64,000 bases of DNA from Acidobacteriota bacterium (GTDB lineage: Bacteria > Acidobacteriota > Terriglobia > Terriglobales > Acidobacteriaceae). Positions 2,053 through 59,615 of the stretch are shown piece after piece. The translations under genes and the position numbers were made by a program. The notes below the pieces were generated by a model. That model worked only from the letters and a program-made list of their open reading frames with translations, was not told the DNA's origin and made no database searches. How positions within the stretch are numbered: the first letter of the stretch is position 1; every line of letters begins with the position of its first letter. The stretch lies in NCBI GenBank assembly GCA_003225555.1, contig QIAM01000026.1, positions 1-64,000 on the forward strand, read 5' to 3'.

Positions 2053-2721
2053 TTAGTGGTGGCGCCGTCGGTGCACCGAGTACGGTACAAATTCCCGGAC
2101 CTTTGTGCGCAGGCAATATACAGACGTTGTGGCGGTGATATACAACGTGTGGTAATCCTTGTCTCCCCAAGCCAGATTGGTGGGCTGTTCAGGCATGACG
2201 ATTGTCCCGAGATGGTGCCCTTGCGCATCCCAAACCCAAATTCCCTGGGCTCCCGTAACAAAGAGGTCTCCTTGCTCGTCGACTTTGATTCCGTTGGGGA
2301 CACCGTCGTGCGGTTCCCCCTTTTCGTCACCGAAAATCCGGCCGTTTGCAAGATTTCCAACCGGCGTGACGTCGTACACGCGAATATTTTTTTCTTGGCT
2401 GTCGTCCACATAAAAGTGCTTACCATCGGGCGAGAATGCCGGGCCATTAGGCTGAGTTAAGTCTCTGGTTACCAAGCGCACCGCCCTTTTTTCGTCCAGG
2501 CGATTCACACCCTGAAATGAAATCTCTTGTTTCTCTCCTTTCACCAAATAAAGCGTCGGATCGGTGAAGTAGATAGCTCCATCGGGCCCGACAATTACGT
2601 CGTTAGGACTGTTGAACCGCTTGCCTTCGTATTTGTCAGCCAAGACCTTATAGCGACCGCCAGTGGCTGTTGCGGGACGCTTGACACCATTATGGCTCTC
2701 TGCTGTATTGTCGGCCAGCAA
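2053..2721 (-). pseudogene. SMP-30/gluconolactonase-like protein, N-terminally truncated
   Basis: The readable part (222 residues from a TTG) matches the SMP-30/gluconolactonase beta-propeller from the YEGKRFNSPNDVIV motif onward (FTDPT, PNGPAFSPDGKHFYV, PNGIKVDEQGDLFVTG). Family members are usually about 300 residues or more and have roughly 100 residues before this motif; here that region is absent, and upstream DNA instead holds the divergent LacI gene. I infer a truncated and probably inactive gene. The original enzyme class hydrolyses sugar lactones and is often controlled by LacI-type regulators, which fits the divergent neighbour. The following TPR gene starts immediately at its stop codon. 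Confidence 0.7.
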
Positions 2722-2764
2722 GTCGCTAAGTTAGGAGTTTGGCATCAAAAAACGAAATCCGGTT

Positions 2765-3812
2765 GTGGTGACCATTCGTGAGGTGGCGAAGGAGAGCGGC
2801 TTCTCGTCTACCACGGTCTCTATTGTGTTGAACAATGCGCCTCTCGCTCGTTATATACCCGACGCGACCAAAAACCGAATTCGGCGGGCCGCCCATAAGC
2901 TCGGCTATCGGCCTAATGTGTTTGCGCGCACCTTGCGCAACCAGCGTACGCGCACGGTCGGGGTGATGGTTTTCGACATGACCGATCCCTACTGCACACC
3001 TATCTTGCGGGGGATTGAGTGCGCGCTTTTACCAAGCTTCGTTCTTGCCAATCCTCACCGACGTACACAACGAGCGCTGCCGCTTCGAGTGTTATCTGGA
3101 AATGCTGCTCGATCGCCGGGTGGAAGCGCTGATCGTGGTTGCGAATTGGGTGTTCGTGAATATCGACGTGTTGGGCGATTTGGAGAAGAACAATATTCCT
3201 ACTGCAATGATCGGCCGCGAGCTGCAGGCCGGTTCGGTCAGTTCCGTCATCGTGGACAACGAACTGGGCGCCCAAGCCGCCGTCGAACATTTATTCTCAC
3301 TGGGGCATCGCCAGATCGCGTTTCTGCGAGGCCCTAGGCACATCGCCGTCACCGCGCCACGATGGAACGGCATTCGAAATTTTGCCAAGGCCCACGGCCT
3401 GCAGATTGATGCAGATCTTGTGCTCGACCTGCCCGGATCGGGGAACCCGCTCTCCGGTTTTGAAGCCGGCTGCAGCCTCACGAAAGAACTGGTCCGGAGG
3501 AAGCGCCAGTTTACGGCTTTAATGGCATTCGATGACATGACTGCTTTCGGCGCAATTCGCGCATTGACCAACTGCGGCATAAGAGTCCCAGAGCAAGTCT
3601 CGGTGATCGGTTTTGATGACATCGCACACGCCAGCCTGCTTACCCCCGCGTTGACCACAGTTCGCCAGCCCATGCCCGAAATGGGCGAGATGGCGGTCAG
3701 CATTGTTGCCGAGGGCATAATCGCGCTCCACGAGAAACGAAGGCTAACCGCCATGCATCGCAAGGTGCTGCCCCAACTCGTTGTTCGCGACTCAACTTGT
3801 AGCCCACTTTAG
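2765..3812 (+). pseudogene. LacI-family transcriptional regulator with a frameshift at 3027-3030
   Basis: The N-terminal part (frame from GTG 2765) has the LacI helix-turn-helix (TIREVAKESGFSSTTVSIVLNN) and the hinge (YRPNVFARTLRNQRT). The periplasmic-binding-like sensor domain continues in another frame to 3812 (LFSLGHRQIAFLRG, MAFDDMTAFGAIRAL, VSVIGFDDI). The two halves join if one T is removed from TTTT at 3027-3030, giving ALYQASFLPILTDV and a normal 348-residue protein. A GGAG at 2734-2737 lies 6 nt before an ATC codon (2744-2746) where an ATG would be expected, so the start may also be altered. It is divergent from the truncated SMP-30 gene it may once have controlled. Either a decaying gene or a homopolymer error. 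Confidence 0.85.
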
Positions 3813-3842
3813 ATTCCGGAGAACAAACGTTTAGGCGAATTT

Positions 3843-4717
3843 CTAGACAAGGTGGATGCGCGCAAGCTGGCCGACTTGTTGCGCACGGGAATGCTGCCGT
3901 GCAACGCTCTTGCTGTCGCCATACAACCCGGTGACGTGACCATGGTTATTGATGTTGGAGGGGAAGGTGCCGGTGTTTGTAATCGGGACGGAGAACGTGG
4001 TCAGGTGGCCGGCTGAATCGCGCAGGAAACCATTGGTCTGCGCCGTGCCCGCCCATGCTCCGAGAATCTTGCCGCTGTCGTTGATGCTGACCGAGGAGGT
4101 TATGGTCGAAGTCGGAACGTCAAAGGACGTGACGTTACCCGAGGTATCGCGGACAAACGCGTGGGTGTTGAAGCTGTTGTCAAAGTAATATCCGGCGATT
4201 TCTCCGGCGGCATTCAAGCCGGCAGGCTGAGTTCCCAGGAACGCCTGCGTACCACTGCCTGGGGCGTCGAATGACGAGTAGTTGCCGAACTGGTCCCGGA
4301 TGAATCCGTGGTACACGGTATTTGCATCCGCGTAGTAGCCTGCAATCTGCCCATTCGCATTGATGAGCTTGGCAAAAGTACCCTGGTTGATGCCGGTGCC
4401 TGCATTGGGGGCGTCGAGGATGGTGTAGTTTCCGGTCGCATCGCGCAGGAAGCCGTGCCACACGCCTGCGGAGTCAACGTAGGTTCCCGCAACTTGTCCG
4501 CCATCATTGATGCTGTAGGGAATGTGCCGGTGCCGGCGGAGCCAGCGAGATCGATGGGCACAAAACTGCCATTCGTCTGCCGCAGGTAGCCATGCGTGAT
4601 CGAGAATTGCCCGGAAGCAGAACCGACGATCTGGCCAGCCGAGTTACAAGATGGGGGGAGGCTAATCCAATGGCTTGACGCCAAAAGATGCGAGCAGTTT
4701 CCTCCGCCGACGCTCAC
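3843..4717 (-). pseudogene. HAF-repeat extracellular protein, frameshifted and truncated
   Basis: Both frames show the HAF-type repeat pattern, in which units such as HGFLRDATGNYTILDAPNAG alternate with INANGQIAGYYAD. The upstream part (from GTG 4717) runs in one frame up to TGTFP and the rest in another frame; adding one base to the GGG run at 4518-4520 (CCC on the coding strand) restores TGTFPYSINDGGQVAGTYVDSAG. The N-terminus lacks a signal peptide and the last repeat degrades into unrelated residues before the stop at 3843, so the gene also looks shortened at both ends. Intact relatives are secreted proteins of unknown role. Confidence 0.7.
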
Positions 4718-4895
4718 GTGTCAAGATGAACGAAATTGCATGGTAGGGGGCTGAGATGGCGTGCGGCAGTGCTTCCGACACGAGAGATTCTGCTGGAAGA
4801 ATTGCAAGAGCCGATGGGTGTTTCCGCACCTGCGAGCGGGGACACTCTGATGCCTATCAACCTATGCTCATCAGAAGGTGCAGTCCTAGTCAGCG

Positions 4896-4920
4896 AGAGG
4901 CCGCCTGCAAGGCGGCCTCT
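4896..4920. terminator. Perfect 10-bp inverted repeat downstream of the Kelch gene
   Basis: AGAGGCCGCC at 4896-4905 pairs with GGCGGCCTCT at 4911-4920 around a 5-nt loop. It lies about 80-105 nt past the stop of the minus-strand Kelch gene. There is no T-run directly after it, so factor-independent termination is uncertain. Confidence 0.45.
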
Positions 4921-4934
4921 CAAAAATCCCGCCC

Positions 4935-4967
4935 AGTCTCTGTCCCACAGACGTGGAGACAGAGACT
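4935..4967 (-). terminator. Second hairpin with 10-bp stem downstream of the Kelch gene
   Basis: AGTCTCTGTC (4935-4944) pairs with GACAGAGACT (4958-4967), with an inner CCAC/GTGG extension. On the minus strand a TTTTT run follows about 10 nt later (4922-4926). Possible terminator for the Kelch gene. Confidence 0.45.
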
Positions 4968-5002
4968 AAAACGGGTAACTTCAGCTCGAGTAGCACTCTC
5001 CC

Positions 5003-7267
5003 CTAGTTAATGGTCAGAGTGACAGTCGTTGTCTTGGTCACGCCTCCGCCCGTGCCGGTTACGGTGATGGTGCGTGTTCCGGTGGTAGCGTTCGCGGCCA
5101 CCTTGATTTGCATAGCTGCGTGCCCTGTCCCGGGAGCTGGAATGGTTGAGGGCTTGAAGAGAACCAGGACGTTGGCGCCCTGTCCCGAAGCAGTCAGGCC
5201 AATCGACGAGTTAAAACCACCCGTAGCAGTTGTCGCTAGATTGACGCGACCGAGTCCGCCCCGGGTGACGGTAATTGTCTTGGGACTTGCTGCAAGCGTG
5301 AAGCTTCCAGTCGGACCAGTGACGGTCAGGCTGACCGTGGTTGTTGCGGTCGTGCTGCCGGAAGTTCCAGTTACGGTGATCGTGTAGGTTCCGGGCACTG
5401 TGGCTGAGCCTACGTCCATGGTCATGGTCGAAGTTCCAGTCCCGGTAATCGAGGTTGGATTGAAGCTAACGGTTACGCCGCTGGGCTGGCCGCTGGCAGA
5501 CAAAGTAACGGGATCGTTAAAGCCGCCCGTTGTCGTGTTGGTGATGGTGGACGTTCCCGACGAGCCCTGCACCACCGTGACTGAGGTGGGGTTGGCGGAA
5601 AGACTGAAACCACCGCCCGCTCCCGTGATGGTGACGGCGACCGCAGCCGACGGAATGCCGTTGGCGACGACAAACAATTGACTTGCCCCGGTCTCAATTC
5701 CCGCGGGCACGTCGAAGCTCGTGGAGACGATTGTGCTGCCCGTAGCGACACCCATGGTGCTGTGATCATGGGTCTTGCAGTAGGTCACGTGTCCGGTAGT
5801 GTTGTTTACAATGCGCACGAGCGGGTAATTGGTCGCGTTCTGGAAGTCATCGCCGTAGGAACTCGCCTCTGACAGGCCGTTGAACTGGGTTCCCGAAATC
5901 GTATTGGTTGACCCGGCTACGAGGGTGCTGTCGACGGACGTGACCGTCGGCTGCCAGGACGAATTGAAGGTTCCCACCGACGTGAGAAACTCAACATCCT
6001 TGGTGAAGTCGGTATACATGATCTGCCCGTTGGGCAGAACCAGCAGGTGCCCGACAAACGAAGGGGTATTGACGGCGTTCGGCGGGGTAGGAAAGGCGGT
6101 CAAGTTAGTGCCGTCCCACTCGTAAAACTTGGCGGGCGCAGTGAATGTGCCGCTGAAAGGGCTGGCTTCTAGAATGACATTGCCGCTAGTTTCAAGTGCG
6201 GCAGGCGCATCATTGGCCGCATTGCTGTCGGGGATATCCGGTCCTGCCGTCCAGGTTCCGGTCAGCGAATTGTAAACCGCCGAGTGACCGGCCGCGCAGT
6301 CGCTGGAACCGGCAGCGAATACGGTGCCGTCTGGACGCAACACCGCTGGCCCAACCTCGAAGCTGCCGCCACCCCGGTTGCAGTTCGAATCCCAGAGTTG
6401 TTTGATGGTATTGCCGGCAGTGGACCATGTGTTGGTTGCGGAATTGTACGCTTCGGAATTCATCCCCGTGAGAATGGTATTGCTGGTGTAGGCATCCACC
6501 GTTAGTACCAATCCGCTTGGAAGCAGAGTCCAGCCTTCTTCGTCGAAGTCGTCGAACTTGCCATCGCTGGAGTTGGACTTGGTGGTGAAGGTCAGCGTAC
6601 TTTCATCGAAATAGTAATAGACCGGGAAGGTGCCGTGGCCGAATGCGATGGCGCAGCATTGCGCCAGCATCCAGGTTCCGTCGGACAATACTACAGATTG
6701 GGCATCGCCGATGTTGCTGGCAGCCGGCGGCGTCGTGGCGGTCCAGGTATTGGCGAGGGGATCGTACAGTGCGCCCTTAGACTGCCAGACTGCAGAGCAG
6801 TTTGAATTCGGACAATTGTATTCTCCGCCCTGGACTACGACCTTACCGTCCGGCAGCACGGCGGAGCCGAAGAAAAGCGGGGCGTAGGTACCAGGCAACG
6901 TTGCCACCTTCAACCAGGTGCCATTGATATAGCTGCCTGTGCTGTCGGGCGTCAGAGTGTACCAAGTGGCGTAGTCCCCGGTGCAACCAGTACAGTTGGG
7001 CTCCGAATGCACCAGGACTCTGCCGTCGGTGAGCAAGAGCATAGAGCCGACGGAAACGGGCGGGGAATTGACAGCTTTCGTCCAGGTCGCGCCCGCAGGA
7101 GGAATTTCCCCAGGAACGATAGAATTCGTTATCCGCACTGGGGGAGGTGTCACTCCAGGCGCGTGCGGGACATAGACCGGGCGATTCTGGCCAGCGGCCA
7201 TGACCGCCGACACGAACATCAAAATGCCCATCAGAGAACGTGGGGCGATTGAGCGCAACACCTTCAT
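5003..7267 (-). CDS. Secreted Kelch-type beta-propeller with two C-terminal Ig-like repeats
   Basis: 754 residues from ATG with a good ribosome site (GAGGA, 6 nt). There is a signal peptide (about 1-26, cleavage near VMAAGQ). Residues about 60-440 have Kelch/galactose-oxidase-like blades, with repeated phrases such as LLLTDGRVLVHSEPNC, AVLPDGKVVVQGG and AVLRPDGTVFAAG. The C-terminal 200 residues contain two related beta-sandwich units of about 95 residues, each of the form GxFSLxxxPxxxTVxxG...TGGFN...TITVTGT. No copper-ligand set of galactose oxidase could be assigned. Likely extracellular or surface-attached and involved in adhesion or carbohydrate contact, by inference from domains only. 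Confidence 0.85.
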   Translation of the reverse strand: MKVLRSIAPRSLMGILMFVSAVMAAGQNRPVYVPHAPGVTPPPVRITNSIVPGEIPPAGATWTKAVNSPPVSVGSMLLLTDGRVLVHSEPNCTGCTGDYATWYTLTPDSTGSYINGTWLKVATLPGTYAPLFFGSAVLPDGKVVVQGGEYNCPNSNCSAVWQSKGALYDPLANTWTATTPPAASNIGDAQSVVLSDGTWMLAQCCAIAFGHGTFPVYYYFDESTLTFTTKSNSSDGKFDDFDEEGWTLLPSGLVLTVDAYTSNTILTGMNSEAYNSATNTWSTAGNTIKQLWDSNCNRGGGSFEVGPAVLRPDGTVFAAGSSDCAAGHSAVYNSLTGTWTAGPDIPDSNAANDAPAALETSGNVILEASPFSGTFTAPAKFYEWDGTNLTAFPTPPNAVNTPSFVGHLLVLPNGQIMYTDFTKDVEFLTSVGTFNSSWQPTVTSVDSTLVAGSTNTISGTQFNGLSEASSYGDDFQNATNYPLVRIVNNTTGHVTYCKTHDHSTMGVATGSTIVSTSFDVPAGIETGASQLFVVANGIPSAAVAVTITGAGGGFSLSANPTSVTVVQGSSGTSTITNTTTGGFNDPVTLSASGQPSGVTVSFNPTSITGTGTSTMTMDVGSATVPGTYTITVTGTSGSTTATTTVSLTVTGPTGSFTLAASPKTITVTRGGLGRVNLATTATGGFNSSIGLTASGQGANVLVLFKPSTIPAPGTGHAAMQIKVAANATTGTRTITVTGTGGGVTKTTTVTLTIN

Positions 7268-28325: not shown

Positions 28326-30881
28326 CTAAAGTGCCTCGACCGCGTTCTGAAGTTCGCGGACAATCCGCTCCGGGGCGGTGCCCGGCTCGAACGTCATAGG
28401 CCGACCGATGCGAACGCTGATGTCCCACGGACGAGCAAACTTCCTCCCCACTTGCTTGACCTCGAACAGTCCCAGAATCTTCATGGGAAGAACCGGAATG
28501 CCGAGGTTCTTCGCCAATAGTCCGATGCCGGCACGAAACGGGTGCAGCTTTCCAGCTACGGTGTGACGGCCCTCTGGGAACACGAGGATGCTGTAGCCCC
28601 GATCAACGGCCTGTCCGGCATAGGCAAAGCTCTGGCGGAAACCAGCTTCGCGCGGAAGCGGAAAGACATTCAGGAGCGAGACTCCAAGCGCCCACTCGAT
28701 TCGGTGGTAAATTCTTTTGAACAGGATTGTGCCGGGAGGAGGTGTGCGCAGCGCTTCCAGCGCTTCTCCGCCCGCTGCCGTTGCCAGGCGATGACGAAGC
28801 CGCCCGGGTAGCGCCGTCAGAATGAAGCCTACATCCACATCGCCGATGTGATTGCAGATCACAAGAATAGGTCCGGTCCATCCGCGTAGATTCTCTCGTC
28901 CTTCAATCCGCGGCCAGCCGAGGAGGAAGACGGCGGGACGCAGCAGCAGATAGTGAGCCAGAAAACGAAGCCACGTCACCGGCCATCGCAATGCCCACCC
29001 AGGATAGTGATACTCCGTGCGCTGCACCGCTTCCCCCCGCAGCATTCGGTCGAGGTCGCCGACGGTGCGAGCAGTGCTGAAGCTCGTCTCGCTGAGGTCT
29101 ACTTGATATCGATCCTCCAATGCGCTCAAGAGTTCGACGCGATCGAGCGAACTCAACCCAAGATCAGAGTCTAGACTGGCATCTGGACTTAATGCCGGAG
29201 CAGGGCGGCCAGAGATGCGCTGGATCATCTCGGAGAAAAGACTGCGTCCTGCCTCCGGAACTCCTGTAGGGTGCAGCAGTTGTGCCTCAGCCGCCTCGCG
29301 GATGAGATTGCGACGGGGCTTCTGGGTGCTGGTGCGCGGAAAATCTTCCTGCGGCCATATCAGCCACAAGCGCATGCGCTGGTACTCGGCCACCGACTTG
29401 TTTACGCGCTCAACGATTGACGACGGCTCGGCGTTATCGTGCAGGATCATTACCGCACAGGGCTCGGCGTTTCCCGAGCGCTCGATGCCTACGACGACGC
29501 AATCCCTTACTTCGGGCTGGCGGCGCAGGGCTGCTTCGAGATCTTCGGGATAAACGTTCATTCCGGCCGGAGTCACGATGACTTCTTTCTTGCGTCCTTT
29601 GAAGTAGAGATTGCCAGCCGGATCCAGAGCGCCGATGTCGCCCGTGCGATACCAGCCTTCTTCGTCAGAAACTGGCCTACTTGCGACTTCCTGAGGACCT
29701 CCCGCCCAATAACCTGCGGCCACACCACCACCGCGCACGAGAATTTCGCCATCCTCTGCGAGTCTGAGTTCACGTCCCTGCAGCACTTTGCCGATGGAAC
29801 CCTTGCCCAACTTGAACGGATGATTCACGCTGATCAGCGACGTCGTTTCGGTGAGGCCGTAGCCCTGGATCACTGCATAGCCCAGACGTCCCCAGAATTC
29901 CTCGGTCTCACGATCGAGTGCGGCGCCGCCCGAGATAAACGCCCAGAATTTCCAGCCGACCTGTCGGCGTATGTGGCGAAACGTCCACCAGCGGTGCAGG
30001 AAGTGCTTGCCTTCGGAGTTTCGAAATCGCTCGCGGAAATCGTCCATCTTTCCCTGCTCTTGAATGTCGCGTTCTACCTTCTGCTTCAGCGATTGCAAAA
30101 CTCTGGGCACGCTCACCACAACCGAGACACGCTCGCGCCGGATGGTGCCGATTACTTCGGAGGGCTTGAGTTCTTCCTGGAAAATTACCGTCCCGCCCAG
30201 GAGTGGAGGCAGGAATATTCCCAGGAACTGCCCAAAAACATGGCTCAGCGGCAGCAGGTTCAGGAAACGCACGGGATGCATTAGCCGCTCGTATTTCAGA
30301 TAGGGGCGCATCTGGTTCTCCAGCGGCGCAACATTGGCGAGTACGTTGCCATGTGTGATGACGACTCCCCTAGGTTCGGCAGTCGCACCGGATGTAAAGA
30401 CGATCTGCAAGACGTCGTCATGGCTGACGACGACACTGGAAGTCTTTGAGGCCGCATGTATTGCCACCGTCTGCGCGAGGCCTTCAAGGACCAGGATCGA
30501 TGAGTGGGGAAGAGTCGAGGTCGAAACACGCTCGGCGTGCCGCCGGGAACAGATCATTAGCTTGGCTGCGACTTGGCGAAAGACTCGATGGGCAAAGTCG
30601 GCCGACGCACTGTCGTCCATGGGCACGACGACCACGCCGGAGCTCGCGCATCCGAGGAAGACCGCGACCCACTCGGCGCAGTTTTCACCCCAGAGCATGA
30701 CTCGGTCGCCTTTGTTGATCCCGCGCGAATCGAGTTCTCGTGCAAAGCGGATTGCCGTCTCTGCGATGCGATGGTACGACCACCGCTCGGTGCGGTATCC
30801 CCGACGCTTGACATACGCGCAGGCCTCGCCATGGTTCTGGAAGTCCTCGAGATAGCTGGCGACAGAGGAACGTTCTTTCAT
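28326..30881 (-). CDS. Acyl-AMP ligase / acyl carrier / PlsC acyltransferase fusion
   Basis: 851 residues from ATG 30881 (a GTG at 30902 is an alternative). Domain 1 (about 1-500) is an AMP-forming ligase: IVFTSGATAEPRGVVITHGN, VIQGYGLTETT, WYRTGDIG and FKGRKKEVIV. Domain 2 (about 535-615) is an acyl-carrier domain with the 4'-phosphopantetheine Ser in LGLSSLDRVEL. Domain 3 (about 640-851) is a PlsC-like 1-acylglycerol-3-phosphate acyltransferase with ICNHIGDVDVGF (H-x4-D) and VFPEGRH. This order suggests it activates a fatty acid, loads it on its own carrier and transfers it to a lipid acceptor at the membrane. A MetR-like regulator gene lies just upstream on the same strand. Confidence 0.92.
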   Translation of the reverse strand: MKERSSVASYLEDFQNHGEACAYVKRRGYRTERWSYHRIAETAIRFARELDSRGINKGDRVMLWGENCAEWVAVFLGCASSGVVVVPMDDSASADFAHRVFRQVAAKLMICSRRHAERVSTSTLPHSSILVLEGLAQTVAIHAASKTSSVVVSHDDVLQIVFTSGATAEPRGVVITHGNVLANVAPLENQMRPYLKYERLMHPVRFLNLLPLSHVFGQFLGIFLPPLLGGTVIFQEELKPSEVIGTIRRERVSVVVSVPRVLQSLKQKVERDIQEQGKMDDFRERFRNSEGKHFLHRWWTFRHIRRQVGWKFWAFISGGAALDRETEEFWGRLGYAVIQGYGLTETTSLISVNHPFKLGKGSIGKVLQGRELRLAEDGEILVRGGGVAAGYWAGGPQEVASRPVSDEEGWYRTGDIGALDPAGNLYFKGRKKEVIVTPAGMNVYPEDLEAALRRQPEVRDCVVVGIERSGNAEPCAVMILHDNAEPSSIVERVNKSVAEYQRMRLWLIWPQEDFPRTSTQKPRRNLIREAAEAQLLHPTGVPEAGRSLFSEMIQRISGRPAPALSPDASLDSDLGLSSLDRVELLSALEDRYQVDLSETSFSTARTVGDLDRMLRGEAVQRTEYHYPGWALRWPVTWLRFLAHYLLLRPAVFLLGWPRIEGRENLRGWTGPILVICNHIGDVDVGFILTALPGRLRHRLATAAGGEALEALRTPPPGTILFKRIYHRIEWALGVSLLNVFPLPREAGFRQSFAYAGQAVDRGYSILVFPEGRHTVAGKLHPFRAGIGLLAKNLGIPVLPMKILGLFEVKQVGRKFARPWDISVRIGRPMTFEPGTAPERIVRELQNAVEAL

Positions 30882-30908
30882 ACAAGGGCGACGAATGTTC
30901 ACTGAGAC

Positions 30909-33214: not shown

Positions 33215-33781
33215 CTATTCTCTTCCTACTCCCAGCGCGTCGGCGACGCGGTTGATGTAATTGAACCAGGAAGCAATCAGCGTGATCTGCAGGATTCCGC
33301 GGTCGTCAAACCCCGCGGCCCGCAAGCCCTCGATGTCGTCCTTCCAGACCTTGGTCGCATCCTTGGTCAGTTTGACCACAAAGTCGAGCATCGCCCGATC
33401 TTGGGCTAAGATTGGAGCGGTGGTGTAATCCTTTTCCAGCGCCTCGACCAGAGCTTTGTCCAATGTCACCCGACGCAGAAACTCTGCGTGCGACTCGATT
33501 CAATACACACATCGATTGGTGACCGATACGACGGTTGCGATCATCTCGTGCTGGCGGCGCTCGAGCGGAAGGTCAGGCGACATGAGTGCGCCGAAGGTGC
33601 TGAAGGCGTGGTAGAGCGCGTCGGGAATCAGCGTGTGCGAGCCTACTATTGATGACGCGCCCGAGGGGTCAGGGTGGACCGGTTCGGCGTATTCCTTGGG
33701 GTAAAGCAGTTTCTCGCCTTCGATTGCCTTGCGAAGCTTTTCGTCGGCTTCGGTGAGAGAGAGAGTTCGAATCCAGGTCAT
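33215..33781 (-). CDS. AhpD-like peroxidase-related selenoprotein (CxxU), TGA at 33500-33502 read as selenocysteine
   Basis: 188 codons with one in-frame TGA. The protein belongs to the alkylhydroperoxidase AhpD / carboxymuconolactone decarboxylase superfamily, peroxidase-related branch: [19 protein letters not shown] before the TGA, then [21 protein letters not shown] and [23 protein letters not shown]. In AhpD the active site is C-x2-C-x3-H; here it reads C-V-Y-(TGA)-I-E-S-H, so the TGA falls exactly on the resolving/peroxidatic Cys position and the frame stays open and conserved on both sides. The hairpin right after the TGA fits a bacterial SECIS element. The product would be a redox enzyme acting on peroxides. 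The genome must supply SelA/B/C/D, which are not in this window. The alternative is a nonsense mutation. Confidence 0.82.
33473..33489 (-). promoter_or_regulatory. Probable bacterial SECIS hairpin downstream of the in-frame TGA
   Basis: On the minus strand ACGCAG-AGTTT-CTGCGT forms a perfect 6-bp stem with a 5-nt loop. The stem begins 11 nt after the TGA; 16 nt separate TGA and loop; the loop has G as its second base. These match published bSECIS rules (at least one G in the first two loop bases, spacing of 16 nt or more) and nearly match the 17-nt upper stem-loop of fdhF. Confidence 0.75.
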
Positions 33782-33868: not shown

Positions 33869-34335
33869 TTAGGGGCGACTTGTCGGAAGAGGAAATCGGT
33901 AGGCCCAACGCATCCCGCTGGACGTTGGTGCACATCGAAAATTGAAACTTTGATTTTCCTGTTGAGTCAGAGTGAAGAAGAAGGTAGCCCCACGGTTGAT
34001 CTCCGCCTCGGCCCAAATTCGTCCCCTATGTTTCACAATGATTCGTTGTACGATCGCCAGTCCCATTCCGGTGCCAATGAACTCTTCTTGAGTAGTGAAG
34101 CCTCCGAAAGGGAGTAAACAACTTGTCGACGTAGTTCATATTGAAGCCCGCGCCATGGTCGCGAATCATGAATACGTTCGTTCCGTCCTGTTGATACTGC
34201 CCGATTCCAATGAGGGCAGGCGCGCGCCGCGGTAAGCTTTACCGCATTGGCGATCAAGTTCCAGAAAACCTGTTTCATCAGGCCAGCATCGCACTCAACG
34301 GTGGGAAGAGAGGAGACCTCAAAGTTTACTTTCCG
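33869..34335 (-). pseudogene. Remnant of a phytochrome-like sensor histidine kinase (ATPase domain only)
   Basis: The HATPase_c domain is readable in three frames: N-box VECDAGLMKQVFWNLIANAVKLT, G1-like [23 protein letters not shown], and G2-like [40 protein letters not shown]. Removing one base from CCC in the first part and one near 34095-34108 restores a single frame. The sensory, PAS/GAF and phosphoacceptor His regions are missing, since a stop (34336-34338) and unrelated DNA precede the fragment. Non-functional unless the rest lies elsewhere. Confidence 0.75.
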
Positions 34336-59371: not shown

Positions 59372-59419
59372 TATCGGATGCAATACAGCGCGCATGCCGA
59401 ATCCCATGTTCCCTGTTTC

Positions 59420-59512
59420 CAGGAGAGAGTTGGCACCAGACACCCGGGATATATGATCCCGGTTCGGTTGCCGTGGCGTCTCAGGGCTCGTCCCTCAGCC
59501 ACTCTGCATGAA
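59420..59512 (-). ncRNA. SAM-I (S-box) riboswitch aptamer
   Basis: Reading the minus strand: CAGAG, GGCTGAGGGACGAGCCCTGA, CGCCACGGCAACC, then a variable hairpin with CGGGATCATATATCCCGG, and GGTGCCAACTCTC. These match the S-box consensus (AGAG, GAGGGA..GGCCC.GUGA-like, GGCAACC, GGUGCCAA, CUCU). P1 is closed by AGAG/CTCT. It is followed by a terminator before the thrC-like gene, so high S-adenosylmethionine should lower expression. Confidence 0.9.
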
Positions 59513-59615
59513 ATTCAGGTCCACCCCCCACTATAAGCGAAGAGCGAACTTGTTCGTACGATACTAAACGGGTTGCCGCTCCTCAGTCAAGCCTTTCGAT
59601 CCCGGGAAATCCCGT

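Follow-up and report, generated by a model that had tools for sequence, protein, structure and literature searches.

The locus considered here raises a simple question: is the TGA codon inside an AhpD-like gene a stop, or is it read as selenocysteine (Sec)? The gene lies in a window of 64,000 nucleotides from a contig of a soil Acidobacteriota bacterium. We put the probability at about 0.97 that positions 33781-33215 on the minus strand encode an AhpD-like (TIGR01926/COG2128) selenoprotein, in which UGA is decoded as Sec94 by means of SelB and an adjacent hairpin. The computational case for it is unusually complete: the frame is open across the TGA, the TGA is conserved, the hairpin is under selection at the RNA level, the Sec machinery is present in the same genome and an AhpD fold is predicted.

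The AhpD-like gene and its surroundings

When TGA was translated as Sec, a single open frame was obtained on the minus strand (33781-33215; M...CVYUIESH...GRE), with 188 residues and then a stop, whereas the plus strand at 33215-33781 contained no open frame. The only in-frame TGA of the gene is at 33502-33500 and corresponds to residue 94, the second position of a CxxU motif. The active-site stretch C91-V-Y93-U94-I-E-S-H98 occupies 33488-33511 on the same strand, and C91, Y93, residue 94 and H98 were invariant in an alignment of 36 sequences. The initial annotation had placed the TGA at the second Cys of a CxxC-like AhpD motif, naming no strand, and had proposed that read-through yields a full-length protein of 188 residues; both proposals hold for the minus strand.

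The same annotation anticipated that standard gene calling would split the gene, and this was indeed the case, because callers stop at TGA. With translation table 11 and no read-through, two open reading frames were called, 33781-33500 (93 aa) and 33469-33215 (84 aa). The whole 188-residue protein scored 114.2 bits with TIGR01926 (cut-off 81.8) and 37.5 bits with Pfam CMD (cut-off 23). The TIGR01926 scores of the split halves were 25.6 and 61.4 bits, both below the cut-off.

To see how the codon is kept, genome contigs were searched for relatives, and 251 loci were confirmed. In the best 80 of these 251, which were used for the codon count and shared 71-96% identity, TGA was found in the aligned codon in all 80. 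Their alignment contained no further in-frame stop and the protein was conserved on either side of the TGA, which is the opposite of the Cys codon and lost downstream conservation that the initial annotation had suggested looking for. The titles of the source records of these best 80 name acidobacterial groups, Gemmatimonadetes (nine) and Latescibacterota (one).

Two further sets of genomes, with three genomes in common, were searched. Among 200 genomes of the order, 32 contained a close homologue (at least 59% identity); it was nearly full length in 28, covered residues 1-167 in G151 and was split in G117, G118 and G174. All 30 codons read in the order loci (L105-L134) were TGA. In the phylum set (396 genomes), 29 genomes contained a total of 30 close loci. 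A TGA was present within 29 of these loci and absent from one (L160 of genome G212, 61% identity); the codon itself was read in 29 of the 30, with 28 TGA and one TGC, that of L160. The codon was left unread in G117, G174 and the second copy of G355 (C41). In plasmid records, the protein was not found at E 1e-20.

One could suppose that a nonsense change turned a former Cys codon into the TGA and that the gene is dead or has been misread. The genome is a draft assembly (114 contigs, 85.99% complete), and the split copies in three related genomes (G117:C2:606555-607117, G118:C112:19172-19721 and G174:C55:4343-4862), which reflect either frameshift decay or assembly error, would fit such an explanation. 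We consider it extremely improbable. Besides the uniform TGA in the best 80 of 251 relatives, in an alignment free of other in-frame stops, the codon is common to several genera and phyla with selection on either side of it, and both the hairpin frozen in 117 sequences and the Sec machinery of the genome, described below, argue against decay or error.

The surroundings of the gene were also inspected. On the minus strand at 28326-30902, the window encodes a protein of 858 residues that carries AMP-binding, phosphopantetheine and acyltransferase domains. We looked for this gene in flanks of at most 2 kb, with the distant rows L161-L201 left out. Of 136 loci, counting duplicates, 36 have a match downstream of the selenoprotein gene and in the same orientation; in one locus the match is upstream, on the opposite strand. 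All matches were in loci at least 77% identical, so this neighbour was dropped as a functional clue; given that restriction, the short flanks and the exclusion of distant rows, it may represent synteny within one group. Upstream of the selenoprotein gene, possible remains of a histidine kinase are seen at 33869-34278 on the minus strand, with a weak HATPase_c match at 33869-34066 (24.8 bits; cut-off 26.4) and no match at 34033-34278. Another feature of the window is a SAM riboswitch on the minus strand at 59401-59514 (RF00162, 67 bits).

The hairpin downstream of the TGA

Immediately 3' of the TGA, at 33489-33473 on the minus strand, the transcript can form the hairpin ACGCAG-AGUUU-CUGCGU. Folding reproduced the features given in the initial annotation, namely a perfect stem of 6 bp and a 5-nt loop that begins 16 nt after the TGA and has G in second position. 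An additional A-U pair within the loop gives a stem of 7 bp and a 3-nt GUU loop at 17 nt, with an energy of -8.8 kcal/mol. According to a 2026 review (PMC13188914), a bacterial SECIS element has a loop of 3-9 nt, a stem of 4-16 bp, a G in the first two loop positions, a distance of 16-37 nt from the UGA and a minimum free energy of at most -7.5 kcal/mol. The hairpin agrees with every one of the constraints published there.

Taken by itself, the hairpin of this one sequence is only moderately surprising and constitutes weak evidence. In 20,000 synonymous recodings of the sequence, a stem at least as long appeared in 4.2%; the 45 nt that follow the TGA did not have a significant folding energy (12.9% of 2,000 synonymous recodings), and the 56-nt fold had a z of -1.16. 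On these figures, single-sequence folding statistics were rejected as the deciding test. It is conservation that decides, because none of 111 columns show stronger synonymous freezing than codons 98-103. For this alignment a row had to contain the TGA, reach 58% identity and have 160 or more aligned residues; removal of identical rows left 117 distinct close sequences. By excess synonymous conservation, codons 98-103 (CAC GCA GAG TTT CTG CGT) took ranks 1-6 of the 111 conserved columns. GCA was used at its hairpin codon in 98% of cases, against 9% elsewhere in the same genes, and CGT in 97% against 8%. The freezing has sharp edges, codons 97 and 104 being free to vary. Across the 117 distinct homologues the hairpin is thus far beyond chance.

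Pairing was examined as well. By one and the same rule, all 135 close TGA loci, counting duplicates, had a stem of at least 6 pairs, and all 34 distant ones had a stem of at least 5. An alignment for covariation was made of 33 TGA rows, 31 of them distinct, consisting of 21 distant rows and 12 close rows chosen by eye for spread and variation. L160 was excluded as a Cys form, and so were L162, L174, the group with CPYULDSH (L163-L173), which has another hairpin register, and the remaining close rows. In these 33 rows the stem cells were paired in 88.0%, compared with 25-51% in slid versions, and there were 17 double-sided changes; none of 500 shuffles scored as high. Pair 17-27 changed from C-G to G-C (12 rows; 6 unpaired) and pair 20-24 from A-U to C-G (5 rows; 9 unpaired). 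Double-sided changes were confined to these two of the seven pairs, a number that 420 of the 500 shuffles also reached, and some distant homologues had shifted hairpins.

From the fold, the synonymous freezing and the compensatory pairs, we predict that the hairpin is a SECIS element to which SelB would bind to direct the insertion of Sec. The 17-nt element is near-identical across the Acidobacteriota and Gemmatimonadota subclade. Since it is kept almost letter for letter, beyond what pairing needs, it is conceivable, and we offer this as a doubtful suggestion, that SelB or another factor reads the sequence of the hairpin as well as its shape, and that the subclade is a nearly obligate selenoprotein.

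Selenocysteine machinery and the close Cys homologue

The initial annotation had proposed a search of the genome for selA, selB, selD and a tRNA-Sec gene, and all four are present: selB on contig C52 (377.2 bits), selA on C31 (538.7 bits, joined), selD at C4:69266-70240 (367.7 bits, joined, with an in-frame TGA) and tRNA-Sec on C32 (68.2 bits), which ARAGORN called as SeC with the anticodon TCA. A second match to RF01852, just at the cut-off (C53, 47 bits), was a tRNA-Ser according to ARAGORN. The selD gene (L014, L015) lies on the same contig as the AhpD-like gene, about 5 kb past the end of the window. Its TGA is followed by a 7-bp hairpin of its own, GUCCAGC-GGC-GCUGGAC, whose loop is 20 nt after the TGA, and selD is a second selenoprotein on this contig.

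The presence of selA was then compared with that of the AhpD-like gene. In the order, all 32 genomes that have the gene also have selA, as against 58 of the 168 that lack it (Fisher 2e-13, uncorrected for kinship); in one of these 58, selA was below the curated cut-off. In the phylum, the TGA form was accompanied by selA in 28 of 28 genomes, a figure read by eye from the list of matches, compared with 224 of 368 others (p 1.8e-6, again uncorrected for kinship). The phylum set thus contains selA in 252 of 396 genomes, and for this reason acidobacterial selenoproteomes may well be under-annotated. The converse does not hold: in the same genus, G092, G124 and G135 carry selA, yet a search for the gene at E 1e-10 gave nothing in them; in G183, which also has selA, only a 37% match was seen.

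These results also bear on the possibility that UGA is recoded here without Sec, through genome-wide reassignment, a suppressor tRNA or programmed read-through that inserts another residue. Of the selA, selB and selD genes that scored above the cut-off in this genome, selD alone contains a TGA, and selD is a listed selenoprotein; the tRNA with the TCA anticodon is of the Sec type, the gene co-occurs with selA, and the position of the hairpin fits the SECIS model. Recoding by another residue is therefore hardly credible, and we retain Sec as the residue at position 94.

Other arrangements of these genes were seen in the searches. In G075 (C3:25880-28179; L171, L204) a partial selB match (234.3 bits; cut-off 242.25) lies beside a TGA-containing AhpD of another type. 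No selA match was found in G075 and its best match to the tRNA-Sec model was a tRNA-Ser by ARAGORN, so the genome is either an incomplete assembly or has a decaying Sec system. A second type of AhpD-like selenoprotein is located about 2.2-2.3 kb from selA in G111, G143, G153, G130, G116, G077, G199 and G180, which belong to the same family; the motif CPYULDSH was seen in the six of these eight genomes that were read, G077 and G180 being unread. In L164 (G111:C1:1218000-1226000, about 2267-6257) the gap is filled by selB (395.4 bits), giving the order selA-selB-ahpD(Sec), and these genes may form a compact cluster for Sec.

Among the close homologues found, Cys was seen only in L160, which lies in a genome that is 99% complete (G212). 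L160 has TGC at the Sec codon, and the first Cys of its motif is lost too, with Thr instead. No selA match was found in G212. At E 1e-30 there was a single selB match, below the cut-off and in a 403-residue frame, which we read as EF-Tu, and the best RF01852 match, the one that was checked, scored 47.1 against a gathering score of 47 and was a tRNA-Ser by ARAGORN. By the rule used, L160 has no hairpin stem; its fold had a z of +1.54, and 192 of 200 shuffles folded as well. A midpoint-rooted tree was built from 94 of 160 distinct rows, those above 72% identity being thinned to one in five. In this tree L160 is inside the starred node of 53 rows, all the rest of which have Sec, and it stands beside G490, G527 and G313 with a support of 87/88. 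In G321 and G476, the tested genomes of the same family, selA, selB and tRNA-Sec are present. The simplest history, for this one case, is that Sec was replaced by Cys in the G212 lineage and that the machinery was lost. The Sec/Cys pair with G212 offers a natural test of what giving up Sec costs.

Outside the clade, seven Cys loci (L175-L181) were examined. Their genomes comprise six without a selA match and one with selA (L178, G073). By the same stem rule, two of the seven loci have a 6-pair stem and three a 5-pair stem.

Predicted fold, proposed chemistry and known systems

A structure model computed from 36 sequences, with Cys in place of Sec, had a pLDDT of 81.7; a single-sequence model was discarded (pLDDT 48.0). 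The best PDB matches of the model were the AhpD-like peroxidase-related entries 6k40, 3c1l, 2pfx, 2prr and 2oyo (E 7.0e-9 to 1.1e-7), and a sequence search led to the same entries. For PA0269, a proton relay of Glu36, Cys48, Tyr50, Cys51 and His55 is given in PMC3141380, and the spacing of E79, C91, Y93, U94 and H98 in our protein matches this relay; Glu79 (33545-33547, minus strand), the predicted proton-relay acid, precedes C91 by 12 residues, the same distance that separates Glu36 from Cys48. All five positions are invariant columns in the 36 sequences. Sec94 takes the position of Cys51 in PA0269 and of Cys133 in M. tuberculosis AhpD. We take this position to be that of the residue which makes the first attack on peroxide.

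The following course of events is proposed. SelB would bind the hairpin just 3' of the UGA and deliver Sec-tRNA(Sec); the UGA would be read as Sec94 and the ribosome would continue to residue 188. By analogy with the family, the relay of Glu79, Tyr93 and His98 may activate Sec94, which would then reduce a hydroperoxide. Cys91 would presumably resolve the selenenic acid, as expected from the family, forming a selenenylsulfide between Cys91 and Sec94, which a cellular dithiol would probably reset, again as in related proteins. Hydroperoxide reductase activity of the AhpD-like selenoprotein is thus inferred only.

The protein could also be a true selenoprotein with another chemistry, in which the selenol serves as a general reductant or in dehalogenation, as in the reductive debrominase Bmp8. 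Bmp8 was among the Foldseek matches (6ohj and 6ohi; E 3.0e-4 to 7.5e-4, query TM 0.70-0.74), and the residue between Cys and Sec is Tyr and not His, as in PA0269, which PMC3141380 describes as a weak hydroperoxidase. Peroxidase-related AhpD-like proteins nevertheless matched better, several of them being described as uncharacterized, and all five relay residues are invariant. We regard a different chemistry as unlikely and favour a putative hydroperoxide reductase.

The gene belongs to an already known kind of selenoprotein, since TIGR01926 proteins with CxxU have been catalogued since 2005, which bears out the remark in the initial annotation that AhpD-like selenoproteins are a known class. 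PMC13188914 has a table entry for an AhpD-like protein (TIGR01926, CxxU), the same selenoprotein family appears as COG2128 in a table of PMC9312934, and the Sargasso Sea survey counted 27 AhpD-like selenoprotein sequences (PMC1088965). The present protein resembles those catalogued in its family-model score, in Sec as the second position of CxxU and in a SECIS directly after the UGA; it differs, on a comparison by family model and motif, in that its subclade was found among Acidobacteriota and Gemmatimonadota and in a single record of Latescibacterota. For Acidobacteria, a 2006 study gives four selenoproteins of three families (PMC1794560). In the portions of the open-licence PMC literature covered, nothing on this subclade was recognised.

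It is related in sequence to NF041238 AhpD_rel_CFYUT (Sargasso Sea hypothetical protein 1), which is likewise listed with CxxU, but is not a member of that family (56.8 bits; cut-off 175). With classical AhpD (M. tuberculosis AhpD and PA0269) it shares an all-helical fold and the spacing of Glu, Cys-X-Tyr(His)-Cys and His, as described in PMC3141380. The classical proteins have Cys at the second position, where Sec is found here, and the structural match to M. tuberculosis AhpD is only weak (1knc, E 0.29). Cys homologues at the Sec position exist elsewhere in the family, L160 in the clade and L175-L181 outside it. For AhpD-like 1, the GOS survey reports 902 Cys homologues and 299 Sec forms (PMC2398784), whereas here one close locus has Cys. 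What is distinctive in this subclade is that Cys is rarely seen in it and that its RNA is sharply frozen.
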